From: Halomonas sp. 7T | GTDB taxonomy: Bacteria; Pseudomonadota; Gammaproteobacteria; Pseudomonadales; Halomonadaceae | Reading direction: 5' to 3' | Assembly (NCBI RefSeq): GCF_025643255.1 | Contig: NZ_CP087112.1 | Span: forward strand, 2,356,001-2,420,000 | Length of the DNA: 64,000 nt | Shown here: positions 37,764-44,496 of the stretch, one piece after another | Numbering within the stretch: position 1 is the stretch's first letter | Layout of the letters: the number at the start of each line of letters is the position of its first letter | Translations under genes and position numbers: made by a program | Notes under the pieces: generated by a model | The model's input: only the letters and a program-made list of their open reading frames with translations | Database searches by the model: none | What the model was told of the DNA's origin: nothing

Positions 37764-38702
37764 TCACGCATCAGATGCTATCCGTGCCAGAACCTGCTCA
37801 AGTTCATGGCGATCCGCTTGGCGCTTGGCCTTCGAGCGACGGGTAAGGTTTTGCAGCTTTCGCCCTACCCCTGGTAATGCTGCCACTCCCTCTAGTTCAA
37901 TCAATGCAAAATCAGGCTGCTCATCTTCAACGGACCATAGAAAGTCACATGACGGCTTATCCAGCTTTTTGGATATCCATCGCAGTAAATGTGCTCTGTT
38001 CTCCAGCAATTGCACCACGGTCACCGGCTTGGCGGTCATTCCCTTGAAGTGGGAATCAAAGATAGCTTCAAAATCCACCGGCTCTCTGGGAGCCAAAAGT
38101 TCCCAGGCTGGTTTAGGGCTGCACGCTAGATACACCAGAAAGGTTTGCCACAATGTCGCATCAGCGCGTTCATCTTCCAGCATCAAGCCAATGTCGAACA
38201 GGTCCCTGGGATGCTGGCGAGACAAGGCCGCCGCCAATTTTCCAGCGTAGAGATCGGCAAAACTAAGCACCTGTGTTGAAGCAAAGCCGAAGGCCTGCTC
38301 GACTTCTGGCTGGACCACCATTGTTCGAACCGGATGTACTGTGCCTCGCATCACCGGGGTGGTTTCGATCTGCACACGTGCACGGCCGCGGCTGCAAATC
38401 AACCGCGTGATGCCCCCGGTATTCGCGCCACCCGATGTTTGCACGTGTAACTGCAAAGGGCGGGCACGCAATGTCTCCGCCAACTGCTCCAATGCCGCTG
38501 CAATTTCCGCCACGCCTGTCTCAAAGTCCTGCACAGGCAGCCAAGTTAGGTCGATATCCACTGACAGCCTGGGAAGATTATGCTCAAACAAGTTGATGGC
38601 GGTTCCACCCTTCAGTGCAAATCGGGTTTCCTTTGCCAGTACCGGCAGGATATCTACCAGCAATTGCACTCGGTCGCTGTAGCGTTTATCCCAACTGCTC
38701 AT
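37764..38702 (-). CDS. abiEii: AbiEii-type nucleotidyltransferase toxin
   Basis: Type IV toxin of an abortive-infection pair. Seen: the DNA polymerase-beta-like signature ALKGGTAINLF and LPRLSVDIDLTW (G-G and S-x-D-x-D), then motif SFADLYAGKLAAALSRQHPRDLFDI with the conserved Lys and Asp. Members are proposed to add nucleotides to RNA (for example tRNA ends) and stop growth. The ATG at 38702 has GGGAG seven bases before it; upstream codons to 38894 belong to the antitoxin gene in another frame. It overlaps abiEi by 17 bases. Confidence 0.85.
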   Translation of the reverse strand: MSSWDKRYSDRVQLLVDILPVLAKETRFALKGGTAINLFEHNLPRLSVDIDLTWLPVQDFETGVAEIAAALEQLAETLRARPLQLHVQTSGGANTGGITRLICSRGRARVQIETTPVMRGTVHPVRTMVVQPEVEQAFGFASTQVLSFADLYAGKLAAALSRQHPRDLFDIGLMLEDERADATLWQTFLVYLACSPKPAWELLAPREPVDFEAIFDSHFKGMTAKPVTVVQLLENRAHLLRWISKKLDKPSCDFLWSVEDEQPDFALIELEGVAALPGVGRKLQNLTRRSKAKRQADRHELEQVLARIASDA

Positions 38703-39504
38703 CAAGGTCTCCCGGTAGAACAATTTGATACTTGGAATGCAAACGGCCACCGGGAACCAGCGATCGCTTGCCACGACCAAGATCCACATCCTTGGTCGAT
38801 AGATGCGAAAACCAAGCGTGCCCATGACGTTCGGCCAGCGCGAGAAACAGACGCTTAGCCTTGATGCTTTGGCAATGGCGCAACAGCATTTCAAGCCGCT
38901 TTGGACGCAGGGTAGCCATGCCCTGCATCAATGCATCCACCTCGTAGACCCCGCCTGCTTCAGACGCCTCAGTACACAACTCCAGCATGGCGCGCTCCGG
39001 TGTCGAACACACCAGCATACCGCTCGGCACTGCTTCACGCCGTTCCAGCCCTTGGTTCAGCAGCGCCTGATCCGTTGTCTCCTCAGTAAACGGAATCACT
39101 GGCAGATCAAAAGGCCCCTTGCCGCAGTATTCAAAACGCTCCACCAACGGCAACTGGTACACCCACCCCGGCACACGATCCGTCCCATAGAGTGTGACCA
39201 CTTCGGCTTCGCCCAGCCGCAGGTAGTGCTCATGCCCCAGCCAAGCCAACGCAAAGCGCCCACCTACATGCAGCGACAAACCCTCCCTCCGTTGCAGTGT
39301 GCTTACAACCCCTTCCCACTGCAGTGAGCCGCCTTTGCGCATGTATACACCACGCGCTGGGGACACCAGCCAGCCACTGGCGACATAGCGGGCCAACAAG
39401 CTACTGTAATAGCCATGCGCGCTTAGCCACCGGCTGGAAACGACGCCGGTATCACTTAACCCAGTCAGCAGGCGGTTTAATTTACTTTCATTTTGATCAC
39501 TCAT
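38686..39504 (-). CDS. abiEi: AbiEi antitoxin/autorepressor
   Basis: 272 residues: N-terminal winged helix (LNRLLTGLSDTGVVSSRWLS...GYYSSLLARYVASGWL) and a C-terminal antitoxin domain, in the order usual for AbiE (antitoxin first). It opposes AbiEii and represses its own operon. ATG 39504 is chosen; a TTG at 39534 is an alternative. The ATG sits at the centre of an inverted repeat and has no good ribosome site, so a leaderless or very short-leader mRNA is possible. Confidence 0.83.
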   Translation of the reverse strand: MSDQNESKLNRLLTGLSDTGVVSSRWLSAHGYYSSLLARYVASGWLVSPARGVYMRKGGSLQWEGVVSTLQRREGLSLHVGGRFALAWLGHEHYLRLGEAEVVTLYGTDRVPGWVYQLPLVERFEYCGKGPFDLPVIPFTEETTDQALLNQGLERREAVPSGMLVCSTPERAMLELCTEASEAGGVYEVDALMQGMATLRPKRLEMLLRHCQSIKAKRLFLALAERHGHAWFSHLSTKDVDLGRGKRSLVPGGRLHSKYQIVLPGDLDEQLG

Positions 39505-39586
39505 AGTGACTAAAATACACTTTCTATAAACCAATACAATGGCCTGGGTTTAATAAATAACAAAAAAAGTCACTCAAGGTGACTTT
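39497..39586 (-). promoter_or_regulatory. Paired inverted repeats controlling abiE
   Basis: Two palindromes share TCACTCA: TCACT-CAT-AGTGA (39497-39509, with the start codon at its centre) and AAAGTCAC-TCAAG-GTGACTTT (39566-39586). Their centres are 73 bases apart, about seven helical turns, so two AbiEi copies would face the same side of DNA. The 57-base interval is AT-rich and must hold the promoter; TTGTAT and TATTTT are candidate -35/-10 with 16-base spacing. Confidence 0.7.
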
Positions 39587-39661
39587 ATAAGGAGATTTAT
39601 AAACCTCACCAGCAGGTACCTTATGCACATTCCATGGTATAGAGGCTTTGTGTACTCTCCA

Positions 39662-40795
39662 CTAAAAGGTGCTATTCACTGTTCGCCCAAGTAACACCGT
39701 ATAGCGCGTGCTGCGCCCACCGCCGGGTAGCTTGGAAAGGCAGCCTTTTTCCATCAGTTCTGCCAAATCCCGCGTGGCGGTGGCTTTACTCACCTTGGCA
39801 AGCGACTGGTACTTACGAGCATTGATACCCTGCGCAAACTCCTCCCCTGCGGTATCCAACAAACGGTTCAACACCTTAATTTGCCGTTCGTTCAGCACGG
39901 TTGTCGCATGGCGCTGCCAGAAGGTGGCCTTTATAAGCACACGATCGATCCTTAACAGCGCCTGCTCAAGCGCTTCTTTCAGCGTATCGAGGAACCACAA
40001 CAGCCAAGGTGTAATATCGAGGCTGCCTTTCTGGGTGCTTTCGAGATAATCGTAGTAAGCGCTGCGACGCGCCATGATCGCCGTACTTAGAGAGTAGAAA
40101 CGCACCGACTGCCGCTCTGCCTGCGCGAGCGCCCGGTCGGTGACGGCACGAGTGACGCGCCCATTGCCATCATCAAAGGGGTGCAAGGTGATCAACCATA
40201 AATGGGTTATGCCAGCTCGAACCAACGCATCCAGCCCCTGTGGTGGATGGTTGAACCACGTCAGAAACGCATCTAATTCGGCATCTAGCTGTTCACGGGG
40301 CGGCGCTTCAAAATGAACGGTAGGCCGATCAAGTCGCCCCGATACCAACTGCATGGGATGATCACCACGCAACTCCCCCACCCGTATCTGACTAATCAGG
40401 CCAGGGCCTTGCACAAACAGCATGGACTGCCAAAGACACAACCGCTCATGGGTAAGCGGTTCATCCAATTGACGCGTAGATTGCAGCAATAGCTCGACCA
40501 GCGCTTCAGATTCAGGTGTTGTTCTGCCAGACATACCGGCCGGCTCGATGCCCAACTGGCGAGCCACGGAAGACCTCACGGAGCCAACATCCAGGCGTTC
40601 GCCTTCGATTTCGCTGGTACGAAGTGCATTCTGGATCAGCGCATCCATCTCCACATCCAGATCTGCCTGCCCAGGCGCTGCCTCAGTTTTACCCAACACA
40701 TGCCCCTGCAGCAGCCGCACGGCATCTAACGTAGGTCGCAGCGCGGACTCGTCCCACTCAAAATGCGGCCAATGTGGCTGTTCCCAGATATACAT
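39662..40795 (-). CDS. Fic-domain protein with N-terminal inhibitory helix
   Basis: 377 residues. The Fic core carries the complete AMPylation motif HPFDDGNGRVTR (about residue 205-216). An upstream TSEIEGERL segment is the [S/T]xxxE(G/N) inhibition helix of class II Fic proteins, which blocks ATP until relieved. A DUF4172-like N-terminus and a C-terminal winged helix (YQSLAKVSKATATRDLAELM) complete it. Probably transfers AMP to a cellular target; the target is unknown. Sits in a defence-like cluster beside AbiE. Confidence 0.87.
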   Translation of the reverse strand: MYIWEQPHWPHFEWDESALRPTLDAVRLLQGHVLGKTEAAPGQADLDVEMDALIQNALRTSEIEGERLDVGSVRSSVARQLGIEPAGMSGRTTPESEALVELLLQSTRQLDEPLTHERLCLWQSMLFVQGPGLISQIRVGELRGDHPMQLVSGRLDRPTVHFEAPPREQLDAELDAFLTWFNHPPQGLDALVRAGITHLWLITLHPFDDGNGRVTRAVTDRALAQAERQSVRFYSLSTAIMARRSAYYDYLESTQKGSLDITPWLLWFLDTLKEALEQALLRIDRVLIKATFWQRHATTVLNERQIKVLNRLLDTAGEEFAQGINARKYQSLAKVSKATATRDLAELMEKGCLSKLPGGGRSTRYTVLLGRTVNSTF

Positions 40796-40858
40796 GAGCC
40801 GGTTGCCCTGCCTATTCAGATCATATTATGAGCCGATTATGGTTGATATTTGGCTCAT
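40794..40858 (-). promoter_or_regulatory. Repeated half-sites upstream of the fic gene
   Basis: ATGAGCC occurs at 40794-40800 (overlapping the start codon) and 40828-40834, with the inverse GGCTCAT at 40852-40858, giving an inverted repeat with 17-base spacing plus a third half-site. The C-terminal winged helix of the Fic protein suggests autoregulation here; that is inference. Confidence 0.5.
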
Positions 40859-41121
40859 GGGCTAGTAAGGGGATTGATTCGGATGGGAAAATTGTTGCAG
40901 AAGAGAATGAATATTGAGGCTGAGCGTATAATCCTAAGATAACCTGTAAAAACAGTTTTAAAAGCTTCTTTAATTTTGCGATCTTTCAGTGGTAATGGCT
41001 CCGAAATTTGAATACTTATAAAAAGCCAATATAGGTTTTAATTAAAAAACGACACTACAAAACCATTATAATCGTATAAAAATGAGCCTAAATCACATCT
41101 CAATGTTAAATATTTGAAGAT
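40859..41121. other. AT-rich spacer in the defence-like region
   Basis: Together with the fic upstream sites this makes a gene-free stretch of 326 bases. Very AT-rich from about 40930, like the module at 41122-42707. A TTTGAA-GA-TTCAAA palindrome (about 41111-41124) lies at the end of the membrane-protein gene. No ORF seen. Confidence 0.4.
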
Positions 41122-41643
41122 TCAAACATCATTATCAGCTTCACGCTCTTCTCTTTTGGTATGAAGCTCGTTAATAAACATGACATTACTATACATAACA
41201 TAAAAAACAGACTCTAACTGCAAAAAAGTAAGAACAATCACTAAAGAAACAGCCAACTGCTTAATATTCAAAAAATATTCACTATCAATCAAGAAAAATC
41301 CAAATACTAACTCTCCCAAAAATATAAGCACCACTGCTGTTACTACAAAAGCAGATTTGAGCACACTGGCAACCAACCCTTCCAACCGCCTAGTTTCATT
41401 AAGAGAATCATTAAAATCTGCATACTCCACTTTTTTAGGGTTAACTATTTTACTTAAAGCATTAGGATACAAGAAAGCTATCCATATACCCATAATAGTA
41501 AAGACCATAGCAGAGACTGTCAGCAGTGACTCCATATATTCTTTAAGCTCGGAATATTCATAATCAAAATCTACAGTATGAAAAATTATAAACAAGCAAA
41601 AAAGAAATGCCATGTATATTAAAATTTTAGTAAAAATCTTCAT
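41122..41643 (-). CDS. Four-helix membrane protein, RexB-like topology, unknown
   Basis: 173 residues with predicted helices at about 5-22, 41-60, 95-117 and 128-150. A polar linker of 35 residues (PNALSKIVNPKK... ETRRLEG) lies between helices 2 and 3, and a charged tail ends NELHTKREEREADNDV. Its ATG overlaps the stop of the upstream gene by one base (TAATG), so the two are coupled. Strikingly AT-rich relative to neighbours. Topology, the TM2-to-linker sequence and the charged tail recall lambda RexB (144 aa, four helices), but identity is too low to claim homology by eye. Confidence 0.6.
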   Translation of the reverse strand: MKIFTKILIYMAFLFCLFIIFHTVDFDYEYSELKEYMESLLTVSAMVFTIMGIWIAFLYPNALSKIVNPKKVEYADFNDSLNETRRLEGLVASVLKSAFVVTAVVLIFLGELVFGFFLIDSEYFLNIKQLAVSLVIVLTFLQLESVFYVMYSNVMFINELHTKREEREADNDV

Positions 41644-42707
41644 TATACGGCCTCCGAAATAGAGCTCCGCAAAGAAGATTCTTCCTTTAATTTAGCCACA
41701 TAATTATGCCTACCGTCTTTAATTTTATTATGAAGCTCTTTTGCGCTTATTAAATCTTTTTTGCGATTAATGAATTTTACTGTATTTTTTAGCCTATATT
41801 TGTCGACCCAAACTATCCCAGCTTCCGTTTCAAAACCAACATTATCCCAGTTGTTTTTAGAACGACCCTCTTTCGCTGTTTTCTCAACAATCTCACGAAT
41901 TTCTTCTACCGAAGGTTTAGCTTCGGCCTTTATTTCTATTTTTCTAGATTTAGATTTAGATTTCACAGAAACATATGGCACTAAATCAGTAAATTTCTTA
42001 ACCCATTCTGCACGCGCGTCCTGTGAGTCAACACGAACAGTTTCTCTTTTCACGATGTGCGTTACTCTTTTAGAAAGTTCTTGAAAGCCTACACTAGCAG
42101 TCTCCATAATTTTTAGTGACATGGAGAATGAGAAACGATACTTTTCGTCACTTTTTCCCACAAATGCCAACCTGACATGCCCTTGCTCTGTATATGTTCT
42201 TTCTCGATTCGGATGCTTAACTCTATTACTTATACATGAAGTAACAAAATCTTGGAAAAGCTGGGCATCACAAACAGAATGATCAAATTTAATTGAGACT
42301 ATGACATTATATTCCGGAATCACCCAGTAGTAACACGGCCTTCCCCAAATCACTTTTTTCCCTCGGTGCTTACCATTATGCTTAACAACTTGGCTTCCGG
42401 AACCAGCTTCATCTTCGGGAACACCCCATAACCCTTCCACCCCACCTGGATCAGACTTCCATAAAACTATAAAGAAATCACCGGTAGCATCATCTTTAAA
42501 GATATCTTTGCAATAAGCACTAGGCTTATTAGATTTAGCCTCTTGCGCGTCCCATGGTATGGTACTCGCAAACGGGCGACCGTCTAACCAGCTTGAAATT
42601 AGGGAAAATGTTTCATCAACCTCACAGCCATATGTTTTGTTACCACCTGCGCGATACAAGCCACATCGATCTATTTTAAAAAAATTCATATGACCTGTAT
42701 CAGACAT
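41643..42707 (-). CDS. Soluble partner of the four-helix protein, unknown, RexA-like position
   Basis: 354 residues, no signal or membrane segment. Features: N-terminal beta-rich domain (IDRCGLYRAGG, DFFIVLWKSDPGGVEGLWG, CYYWVIPEYNVIVSIKF), a central conserved-looking RLAFVG then RFSFSMSL block, a Lys-rich hinge (VKSKSKSRKIEIKAEAK at about 250-266) and a helical C-terminus. No known nuclease or NTPase motif. An alternative start is the Met at residue 7, which has AGG at a good distance. First gene of a coupled pair with a membrane effector, as in sensor-effector abortive-infection systems. Family not recognised. Confidence 0.6.
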   Translation of the reverse strand: MSDTGHMNFFKIDRCGLYRAGGNKTYGCEVDETFSLISSWLDGRPFASTIPWDAQEAKSNKPSAYCKDIFKDDATGDFFIVLWKSDPGGVEGLWGVPEDEAGSGSQVVKHNGKHRGKKVIWGRPCYYWVIPEYNVIVSIKFDHSVCDAQLFQDFVTSCISNRVKHPNRERTYTEQGHVRLAFVGKSDEKYRFSFSMSLKIMETASVGFQELSKRVTHIVKRETVRVDSQDARAEWVKKFTDLVPYVSVKSKSKSRKIEIKAEAKPSVEEIREIVEKTAKEGRSKNNWDNVGFETEAGIVWVDKYRLKNTVKFINRKKDLISAKELHNKIKDGRHNYVAKLKEESSLRSSISEAV

Positions 42708-42755
42708 AATATCAACACCGATTTTTAAATTTAACTAGGATATTAACTGAAATTA

Positions 42756-42781
42756 AAAGGCCCGCCTAGGGGCGGGCCTTT
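42756..42781 (-). terminator. Terminator of guaA
   Basis: 11-bp stem AAAGGCCCGCC/GGCGGGCCTTT with a four-base loop; minus strand continues TTAATTT. It separates guaA from the AT-rich module, which therefore needs its own promoter in the 50 bases between. Confidence 0.9.
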
Positions 42782-42820
42782 AATAGGGATATATTCTAAC
42801 TTTAGTTCTATACGACACCC

Positions 42821-44398
42821 TCACTCCCACTCAATCGTAGCAGGCGGCTTGCTGCTTACATCGTAGGTAACCCGAGAAACCCCTTCCAACTCGTTGATAA
42901 TGCGGTTGGACACCTTCTCCAGCAGCTCGTAGGGCAGGTGCGCCCAGCGGGCGGTCATGAAGTCGATGGTTTCGACGGCGCGTAGCGCAATGACCCACTC
43001 GTAGCGGCGGCCGTCGCCGACGACCCCTACGGATTTCACCGGCAGGAACACGGCGAATGCTTGGCTGGTTTTTTCGTACCAGCCAGAGGCGCGTAGCTCT
43101 TCGATGAAGATGGCGTCGGCATCGCGGAGGATATCGGCGTAGTCCTTTTTCACTTCACCCAGAATGCGCACGCCTAGGCCGGGGCCAGGGAACGGGTGGC
43201 GGTAGACCATATCGTAGGGCAAGCCGAGTTCGAGGCCGAGTTTGCGCACTTCGTCTTTAAACAGTTCGCGCAGCGGCTCGACCAGCTTGAGCTTCATGGT
43301 TTCCGGCAGGCCACCCACGTTGTGGTGGGACTTGATCACGTGCGCCTTGCCGGTTTTGGAGGCGGCGGACTCGATCACGTCAGGGTAGATGGTGCCCTGG
43401 GCCAGGAAGTCGACGCCATCGATTTTGCTGGCTTCTTCATCGAACACGTCGATAAAGGTGTTGCCGATGATTTTGCGCTTGGCTTCCGGGTCTTTCTCGC
43501 CTTCCAGCTTGCCGAGGAACAGCTCTTCGGCATCTACGCGAATCACTTTCACGCCCATGTGCTTAGCGAAGGTTTCCATCACTTGGTCGCCTTCGTTCTT
43601 ACGCAGCAGGCCGTTATCCACAAACACGCAGGTTAGCTGGTCGCCAATCGCTTTGTGCAGCAGTGCGGCTACTACAGAAGAGTCGACACCGCCAGAAAGG
43701 CCGAGCAGTACGTGGCGATCGCCTACTTGCTCGCGTACGCGCTGTACTTGGTCTTCGATGATTTGTGCCGGTGTCCACAGCTTTTCGGCACCGCAAATAT
43801 CCAGCACGAAGTGCTCAAGAATGCGCTGGCCTTGCAGGGTGTGGGTCACTTCCGGGTGGAACTGTACGCCATAGAACTGCTTTTCTTCCCAGGCCATGGC
43901 GGCAATCGGGCAGCTCGGGGTAGAGGCCGTCACGGTGAAGGTGTCAGGTACTTGGGCGACTTTGTCACCGTGGCTCATCCACACATCCAGCAGCGCGTTG
44001 CCAGAAGCAGCGTCTACGTGGTCTTTAATGTCTTTGAACAGTGCGTTTTCAGCGTCGATTTGAATTTGGGCATAGCCAAATTCGCGCTGGTTAGAGCCTT
44101 CGACTTTACCGCCCAGCTGCTCGGCCATGGTTTGCATGCCATAGCAGATACCCAATACCGGCAGGCCCATTTCAAACACGCACTGTGGGGCACGCGGGGA
44201 ATCCAGCTCGGTCACAGATTCCGGGCCACCGGCCAGGATGATGCCGTTAGGGTTGTATTCGCGAATCTCTTCCTCGGTGATATCGAAGGCGCGGATTTCA
44301 GAGAATACGCCGATTTCACGTACCCGGCGGGCGATCAGCTGGGTGTACTGGGAGCCGAAGTCGAGAATCAGAATCTTATGGGCGTGAATGTCACTCAT
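42821..44398 (-). CDS. guaA: GMP synthase (glutamine-hydrolysing)
   Basis: Converts XMP to GMP with ATP and glutamine. Seen: class I glutaminase with LGICYGMQ (nucleophile Cys) and FHPEVTHT (His, Glu), the ATP pyrophosphatase loop [10 protein letters not shown], and the C-terminal dimer domain ending PATIEWE. From the ATG at 44398 the protein is 525 residues, the same as E. coli GuaA; an open frame extends further upstream but adds non-family sequence. Downstream of guaB, 98 bases away. Confidence 0.96.
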
Positions 44399-44450
44399 GG
44401 CAGGGTCTCGGTTAAGCGGTGCGGGTGCCGCTGGTAAGGCCAAAAAGCAA

Positions 44451-44474
44451 GCGGCGAGCTGCAATGCTCGCCGC
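44451..44474 (-). terminator. Intercistronic hairpin between guaB and guaA
   Basis: Perfect 9-bp stem GCGGCGAGC/GCTCGCCGC with six-base loop, followed on the minus strand by TTGCTTTTTGG. It has the form of a terminator or attenuator and would set the guaA:guaB ratio. Confidence 0.7.
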
Positions 44475-44496
44475 GCCATTTAATAAAACGTGCTGG

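Follow-up and report, generated by a model that had tools for sequence, protein, structure and literature searches.

What do two unusually AT-rich genes do between guaA and a cluster of Fic and AbiE genes in the chromosome of Halomonas sp. 7T? An earlier note on a 64,000-nt stretch of this genome (contig NZ_CP087112.1; hereafter the window, meaning the whole stretch analysed) had likened the two products, a soluble protein of 354 amino acids (aa) and a four-helix membrane protein of 173 aa, to RexA and RexB of phage lambda. The proteins are called here M18A and M18B, after the candidate defence family PDC-M18 that they match. Our analysis suggests that the pair is a mobile PDC-M18 phage-defence module, working most likely as lambda RexAB is thought to, and we give this reading a probability of about 0.7; that its role is phage defence, by whatever means, is considered highly probable.

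The PDC-M18 family and its paired genes

Both open reading frames (ORFs) were present exactly where the earlier note had placed them, on the minus strand and sharing one base, with the TAA of the M18A gene overlapping the ATG of the M18B gene. Their sharp AT-richness was also recovered, since the pair has a GC content of 36.4% against 54.4% in the whole window and forms its lowest-GC region; 5 of 625 sliding windows of 1586 bp were equal or below, and all sliding windows under 45% GC begin at 40100-41700, at or beside the pair. The surroundings were likewise as described, with guaA recognised by its translation and SoFic, AbiEi, and AbiEii by PADLOC.

M18A matched the PADLOC model PDC-M18A (PDLC04494, 6.2e-35, residues 1-335 on profile positions 1-333 of 339), and M18B matched PDC-M18B (PDLC04500, 8.4e-19, residues 1-171 on positions 1-163 of 174). 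Judged by these nearly full-length matches in the same gene order, the pair is the PADLOC two-gene candidate PDC-M18, A before B and adjacent, in which PDC is presumably to be read as 'phage defence candidate'; our M18A lies far from the core of the model, on which the protein of Pseudomonas phage Ps59 reaches 461 bits and ours 119. The entry in PADLOC-DB 2.0.0 carries no function or description, and the Rex-type fold is an addition of the present analysis, absent from that entry. The two proteins also matched PHROGs of unknown function (M18A phrog_24371, 5.8e-55; M18B phrog_37654, 7.9e-20), and nothing in Pfam or NCBIfam exceeded the cut-offs for either. A protein search at E<=1e-3 yielded 202 relatives for M18A and 227 for M18B, mostly from Gammaproteobacteria and Betaproteobacteria among the matches listed (120 each) that name an organism. 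No paper naming PDC-M18 was found in a text search of 5.39 million open papers. The gene family is already known as a candidate, and a link between PDC-M18 and the RexA fold was not found in the literature searched.

The co-occurrence survey that the earlier note had proposed was carried out with hidden Markov models built from 87 A rows and 77 B rows and run on 66 loci. M18A was found in 65 of them, always with M18B immediately downstream on the same strand, and the remaining locus, the lambda rex region, contained neither. The 65 loci include repeats; the 41 records left (15 cellular genomes, 22 viral contigs, 3 phage records, and 1 plasmid) all carried M18B directly downstream of M18A, and these become 39 if L009/L017 and L012/L046, whose identical scores probably mark the same place in two collections, are each counted once. 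Five loci (L037-L041) are near-identical copies, and in L044 and L074 the M18A gene is interrupted, split over two frames. Nearly all of these records were retrieved via M18A, which cannot reveal an M18A lacking a detectable match. The reverse test, on viral contigs seeded with M18B, found M18A directly upstream in 18 of 18 loci, only 4 of the contigs being new. The pairing exceeds chance: these are two large families that stay together.

Predicted fold and relation to known Rex systems

A structural search with the M18A model returned RexA, which had been named beforehand, as its top match, and RdgC as the second and third. RdgC is a recombination-associated housekeeping protein of E. coli and is not known to have a membrane partner. 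Structural homology of RdgC with RexA is described in PMC11077077. The fold of M18A is thus predicted to be of the RexA/RdgC type, and on this model M18A is quite likely a true RexA-fold sensor. As a separate observation, a search of BFVD with the same model matched the phage proteins A0A8S5S8L2, A0A8S5MSR5, and A0A8S5QGP5 with high probability at 9-13% identity, and these could be further distant relatives.

The four-helix reading of the partner was reproduced in two ways, by hydrophobic peaks near residues 3-21, 40-58, 101-119, and 123-150 and by AlphaFold helices at 3-24, 30-67, 77-118, and 124-172 (predicted local distance difference test score 88.1). A charged tail past the last helix, also claimed at the outset, is present, with 3 K/R and 6 D/E in residues 150-173. 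Profile comparison of M18B with RexB gave probabilities of 0.2-0.3%, and its structure search gave widely matching helical bundles, none of them informative. Among 77 near relatives of M18B, the loop between helices 2 and 3 has invariant D76 and F77, with R86, L87, and E88 kept in at least 90%, and the tail has invariant N153 and F156, with H161 and R164 kept in at least 90%. In the partner protein gp31 of Sbash, helices 2 and 3 are joined by a cytoplasmic loop in which the substitution R70A or D73A makes the protein defective in defence, according to PMC6426606 and PMC6426596; the corresponding M18B loop offers D76, R86, and E88. Because of this residue conservation and the Sbash mutants, the loop and tail of M18B are likely, by analogy, to be points of contact.

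The resemblance to lambda extends to gene layout. In both cases a sensor gene is followed by a four-helix membrane gene, with products of 354 and 173 aa against 279 and 144 aa (the lambda genes, 840 nt for rexA and 435 nt for rexB, agree with the sizes given in the earlier note), and the order CI-A-B occurs in a phage carrying a related pair. Unlike lambda RexA and RexB, to which no sequence relation was detectable, the window pair is chromosomal, beside guaA rather than behind CI, and M18A is 75 aa longer than RexA. Two other pairs, gp44/gp43 of CarolAnn (370 and 178 aa, close to ours) and gp30/gp31 of Sbash, likewise combine a sensor with a four-helix partner, and in both systems both proteins are required for defence, according to PMC12894663. 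CarolAnn gp44/gp43 showed no sequence relation to M18A/M18B and was unmatched by PADLOC.

Several sequence tests went against a Rex-type reading. Neither protein matched the RexA and RexB models (PF15969, PF15968; PDLC02339, PDLC02340) up to E 5, the Pfam control giving 1e-97 for lambda RexA and 8.5e-92 for lambda RexB. Alignments with hhalign to lambda RexA and RexB were not significant with single sequences, nor were those of wide alignments (95 and 85 rows) to 5 RexA and 4 RexB, of which the RexA alignment is shallow. Against the predicted contacts, the M18B loop compared above with Sbash gp31 is not kept in the most distant M18B proteins: among 22 sequences, these included, only L40, F48, W54, and P60 are invariant, so that by sequence the loop contact, if it exists, has diverged among distant M18B. 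A 12-residue local similarity between M18A 217-228 and RexA 150-161 had a probability of 0.7% and was not used.

These points lead to the question of whether the pair could be a new sensor-effector abortive-infection system unrelated to Rex, in which M18A would have a fold of its own and sense a phage protein or RNA, M18B would still be the effector, and the resemblance to RexA would be coincidental. This is considered unlikely, given that the best structural match was the very protein named beforehand and the next two were its homologue RdgC. Missing similarity is not counter-evidence either, as the same profile method also left CarolAnn gp44/gp43 unlinked to RexA/RexB, and because this validated Rex-like pair fails too, the method cannot decide on Rex kinship. 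By sequence comparison the pair is outside the lambda RexA/RexB families; it may belong to a wider, fold-defined Rex-like class, two features of which were found, the predicted RexA/RdgC-type fold of the sensor and an adjacent four-helix partner. The Rex-like reading of the earlier note was supported to that extent, and membership in the lambda sequence families was not.

A further comparison is with RexABpp of Pseudomonas putida prophage P1 (PP_5643-PP_5644; PMC12894663). Its sensor is detectable as RexA by HHpred, according to the same source, whereas M18A is not by the comparisons run. That paper also describes how an excess of RexA stops growth and makes the membrane leaky in a RexB-dependent manner, with no depolarisation detected. 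In a search for RexABpp among 298 Pseudomonas genomes, PDLC04494 and a wide M18A profile found M18A in 6 (including L008 and L009), and Pfam RexA gave 2 matches at E<=0.5, none past the cut-off. A seven-residue fingerprint of RexBpp (PMC12894663) reached at most 3 of 7 residues in any M18B among the matches listed and the loci of the pairing scan, the 6 Pseudomonas genomes with M18A among them. If RexABpp belongs to PDC-M18, part of the link to the Rex fold would already be experimental. The DUF4747 motif, reported in RexA in PMC6426606 and PMC6426596, was tried as a bridge and rejected: it occurred in 4 of 199 Pseudomonas genomes, and no profile link to M18A or RexA was found. Apart from this, in 4 of 4 loci (L151-L154) the ORF that comes after the DUF4747 gene (186-218 aa) looks by eye like a membrane protein; PADLOC did not recognise the pairs of L151 and L152, and such loci are a possible further Rex-like family.

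Genomic settings of the pair

M18A was rare in each set of genomes searched. The window's own genome was the only one with M18A among 82 of its genus and among 369 drawn across the class, and in E. coli one satellite version was found in 29 of 5,426 genomes and another in 7 of 5,426. This rarity is the spotty pattern typical of mobile defence genes, and the pair is a horizontally acquired, mobile two-gene module.

Its settings are diverse and mostly mobile. By its record annotation, Vibrio phage 10N.222.45.E8_PE002 carries, in sequence, a CI repressor, A, B, Septu genes, and a type IV restriction enzyme, beginning with the order of lambda cI-rexA-rexB. Three P4-like satellites (L070, L074, L081) have the pair downstream of psu, confirmed by PHROGs, with an integrase-like gene on the opposite strand past the pair (by PHROGs in L070, by eye in L074 and L081) and one extra ORF in between in L070 and L074; the L081 version lies in E. 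coli F11 between an annotated polarity suppression protein and the integrase at tRNA-Sec. The psu-integrase locus of P4 satellites is a hotspot of anti-phage systems, according to PMC9122126. In Providencia phage PSTCR3 the pair lies between the antitermination protein Q and lysozyme genes, with one hypothetical gene on each side, and in the transposase-encoding Pseudomonas phage Ps59 it immediately precedes the holin gene. Prophage-like contigs have it beside tail genes (L036, L042) or behind a replication-nicking gene (L082), and on Vibrio plasmid pAM7 it lies close to genes for type I restriction-modification.

Could the pair instead serve prophage regulation or superinfection immunity, with M18A binding phage DNA to tune the lysis-lysogeny choice or exclude the cognate phage, and any other protection secondary or absent? 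CI or repressor-like genes stand directly upstream of the pair in L046 and the viral contig L025, and lambda RexA alone biases the bistable switch, as described in PMC11077077. The pair is also found away from any repressor, however, between psu and the integrase in P4-like satellites, near phage lysis and tail genes, and in the chromosomal guaA/Fic/AbiE slot, and this explanation is regarded as very improbable.

Of the 82 genomes searched in the genus, 79, the window's included, match the last 600 bases of guaA, and the sequence that follows differed from the window's in all 29 relatives read by eye; it is AT-rich in many, and some relatives resemble one another there. The 20 kb past guaA were compared in 14 of the 29. 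No BLAST match to the stretch of the pair was found in these 14 (0/14), and matches of at least 1.2 kb over the window's Fic gene were found in 4 (L138, L140, L142, L148). PADLOC was run on 20 proteins, one or two per relative and each drawn from its first three ORFs, and at E<=1e-5 matches were obtained for 15 of the 20, in 12 of 14 relatives. They comprised PD-Lambda-4, Lamassu LmuA/LmuB, PDC-M71A/B, DNA methyltransferases (2), type I restriction-modification (3), a HEC-06/Orf5-like protein, TIR/PDC-S60, and weaker 'cll' matches (2); no match came from L143 or from L139, whose ORF looks integrase-like by eye. Ten other window genes, taken as a control, gave 2 partial matches (a MerR-like regulator and one small protein). 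Because 12 of 14 relatives matched against 2 of 10 partial matches in the control, the pair sits in a slot that mostly carries defence-type genes in this genus, and the variable 3' flank of guaA (42707-42821 in the window; loci L083-L112, L137-L150) seems to be a hotspot of defence genes there, which could be mined for new systems. As an observation on the slot itself, L141 (2461-4458) and L142 (2277-4298) each have a methyltransferase gene and two ORFs on from it a protein of 666 and 674 aa, respectively, with a P-loop-like motif by eye and unmatched by PADLOC at 1e-5; these are possibly undescribed methylation-linked defence operons.

The neighbours of the pair in the window recur elsewhere. 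In Pseudomonas fuscovaginae (L010, 4504-9561) the pair is near AbiEi, AbiEii, and a Fic-like gene, as in the window (37764-42707), and in Undibacterium (L002) a Fic gene is close to it; the togetherness of AbiE, Fic, and M18 could reflect chance in defence islands or a recurrent association. PADLOC was applied to neighbours in 3 of the 10 named genome loci (L002, L003, L010), the single neighbour run from L003 being unmatched, and at several other genome loci, e.g. L001 and L006, the neighbours look ordinary by eye. AbiE and Fic are toxin-type modules. Their adjacency, together with the fact that no defence phenotype for PDC-M18 was found in the open literature, would suit a plain toxin-antitoxin or membrane-stress module, gained by horizontal transfer and lacking any anti-phage role; against the recurrent siting of the pair in phages, satellites, and defence-type slots, this is the least probable of the explanations considered.

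Table 1. Features of the pair and its surroundings in the window
Feature	Position	Strand	Basis	Reading
M18A-type soluble protein, 354 aa	41643..42707	-		Predicted RexA/RdgC-type fold; proposed DNA-bound infection sensor
M18B-type membrane protein, 173 aa	41122..41643	-	ORF, PADLOC, PHROGs, AlphaFold, hydropathy	Four helices, charged C-terminal tail; proposed membrane effector
AT-rich leader (36% GC), guaA to pair	42708..42820	-	Sequence reading by eye, GC	Presumed promoter region
guaA (GMP synthase)	42821..44479	-	Translation	Fixed edge of the variable slot
Fic-family protein	39662..40795	-	PADLOC SoFic 3.3e-41	Slot's other side; not claimed as a component of the pair
AbiEi	38686-39534	-	PADLOC 1.3e-88	Neighbour; not claimed as a component of the pair
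AbiEii	37764-38894	-	PADLOC 8.4e-107	Neighbour; not claimed as a component of the pair

A consensus scan gave no promoter or terminator match in the leader, where a GC-rich hairpin at about 42755-42782, seen by eye, resembles the guaA terminator. In that scan, promoter-like and terminator-like sites fell under their means in shuffled sequence. No convincing direct repeats marking an integrated element were found around the pair, and no tRNA was found in the 64,000-nt window. The AbiEii ORF as listed begins at TTG, and because its profile match opens only at residue 69, translation probably starts some 65 codons downstream of that TTG.

Proposed mechanism and its meaning

By analogy with lambda (per PMC12894663), P. 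putida RexABpp, Sbash, and CarolAnn, M18A would be a soluble, probably dimeric protein that binds DNA without sequence specificity, as RexA and RdgC do, and could react to some hallmark of phage infection, for example intermediates of replication or recombination. It would then activate M18B in the inner membrane via the helix 2-3 loop and the tail, and the activated M18B, which is probably a membrane-damaging effector, would permeabilise the membrane or halt growth, so that the infection aborts, which would give protection against the phage.

Our results raise the further possibility, which we favour somewhat, that PDC-M18 is a broad second RexAB branch in which a DNA clamp of the RdgC fold gates a four-helix membrane effector. 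Members of the family occur in P4-like satellites, in P2-like phages and prophages with lambda-like tail genes, and also in a transposable Pseudomonas phage, on a Vibrio plasmid, and in chromosomal defence slots; the RexAB-like systems described so far number only five, according to PMC12894663. If PDC-M18 is of Rex type, the decades-old question of how lambda RexA detects infection gains new material: about two hundred protein clusters per search, some of them in E. coli satellites, would become usable for testing the trigger, DNA binding, and the effector, and the trigger could be sought in many independent systems rather than in a single one. A standard defence annotation database would thereby see one of its unexplained entries gain a testable mechanism, and the 70-year-old rII exclusion of lambda would be one outlying member of a common mobile class of defence.
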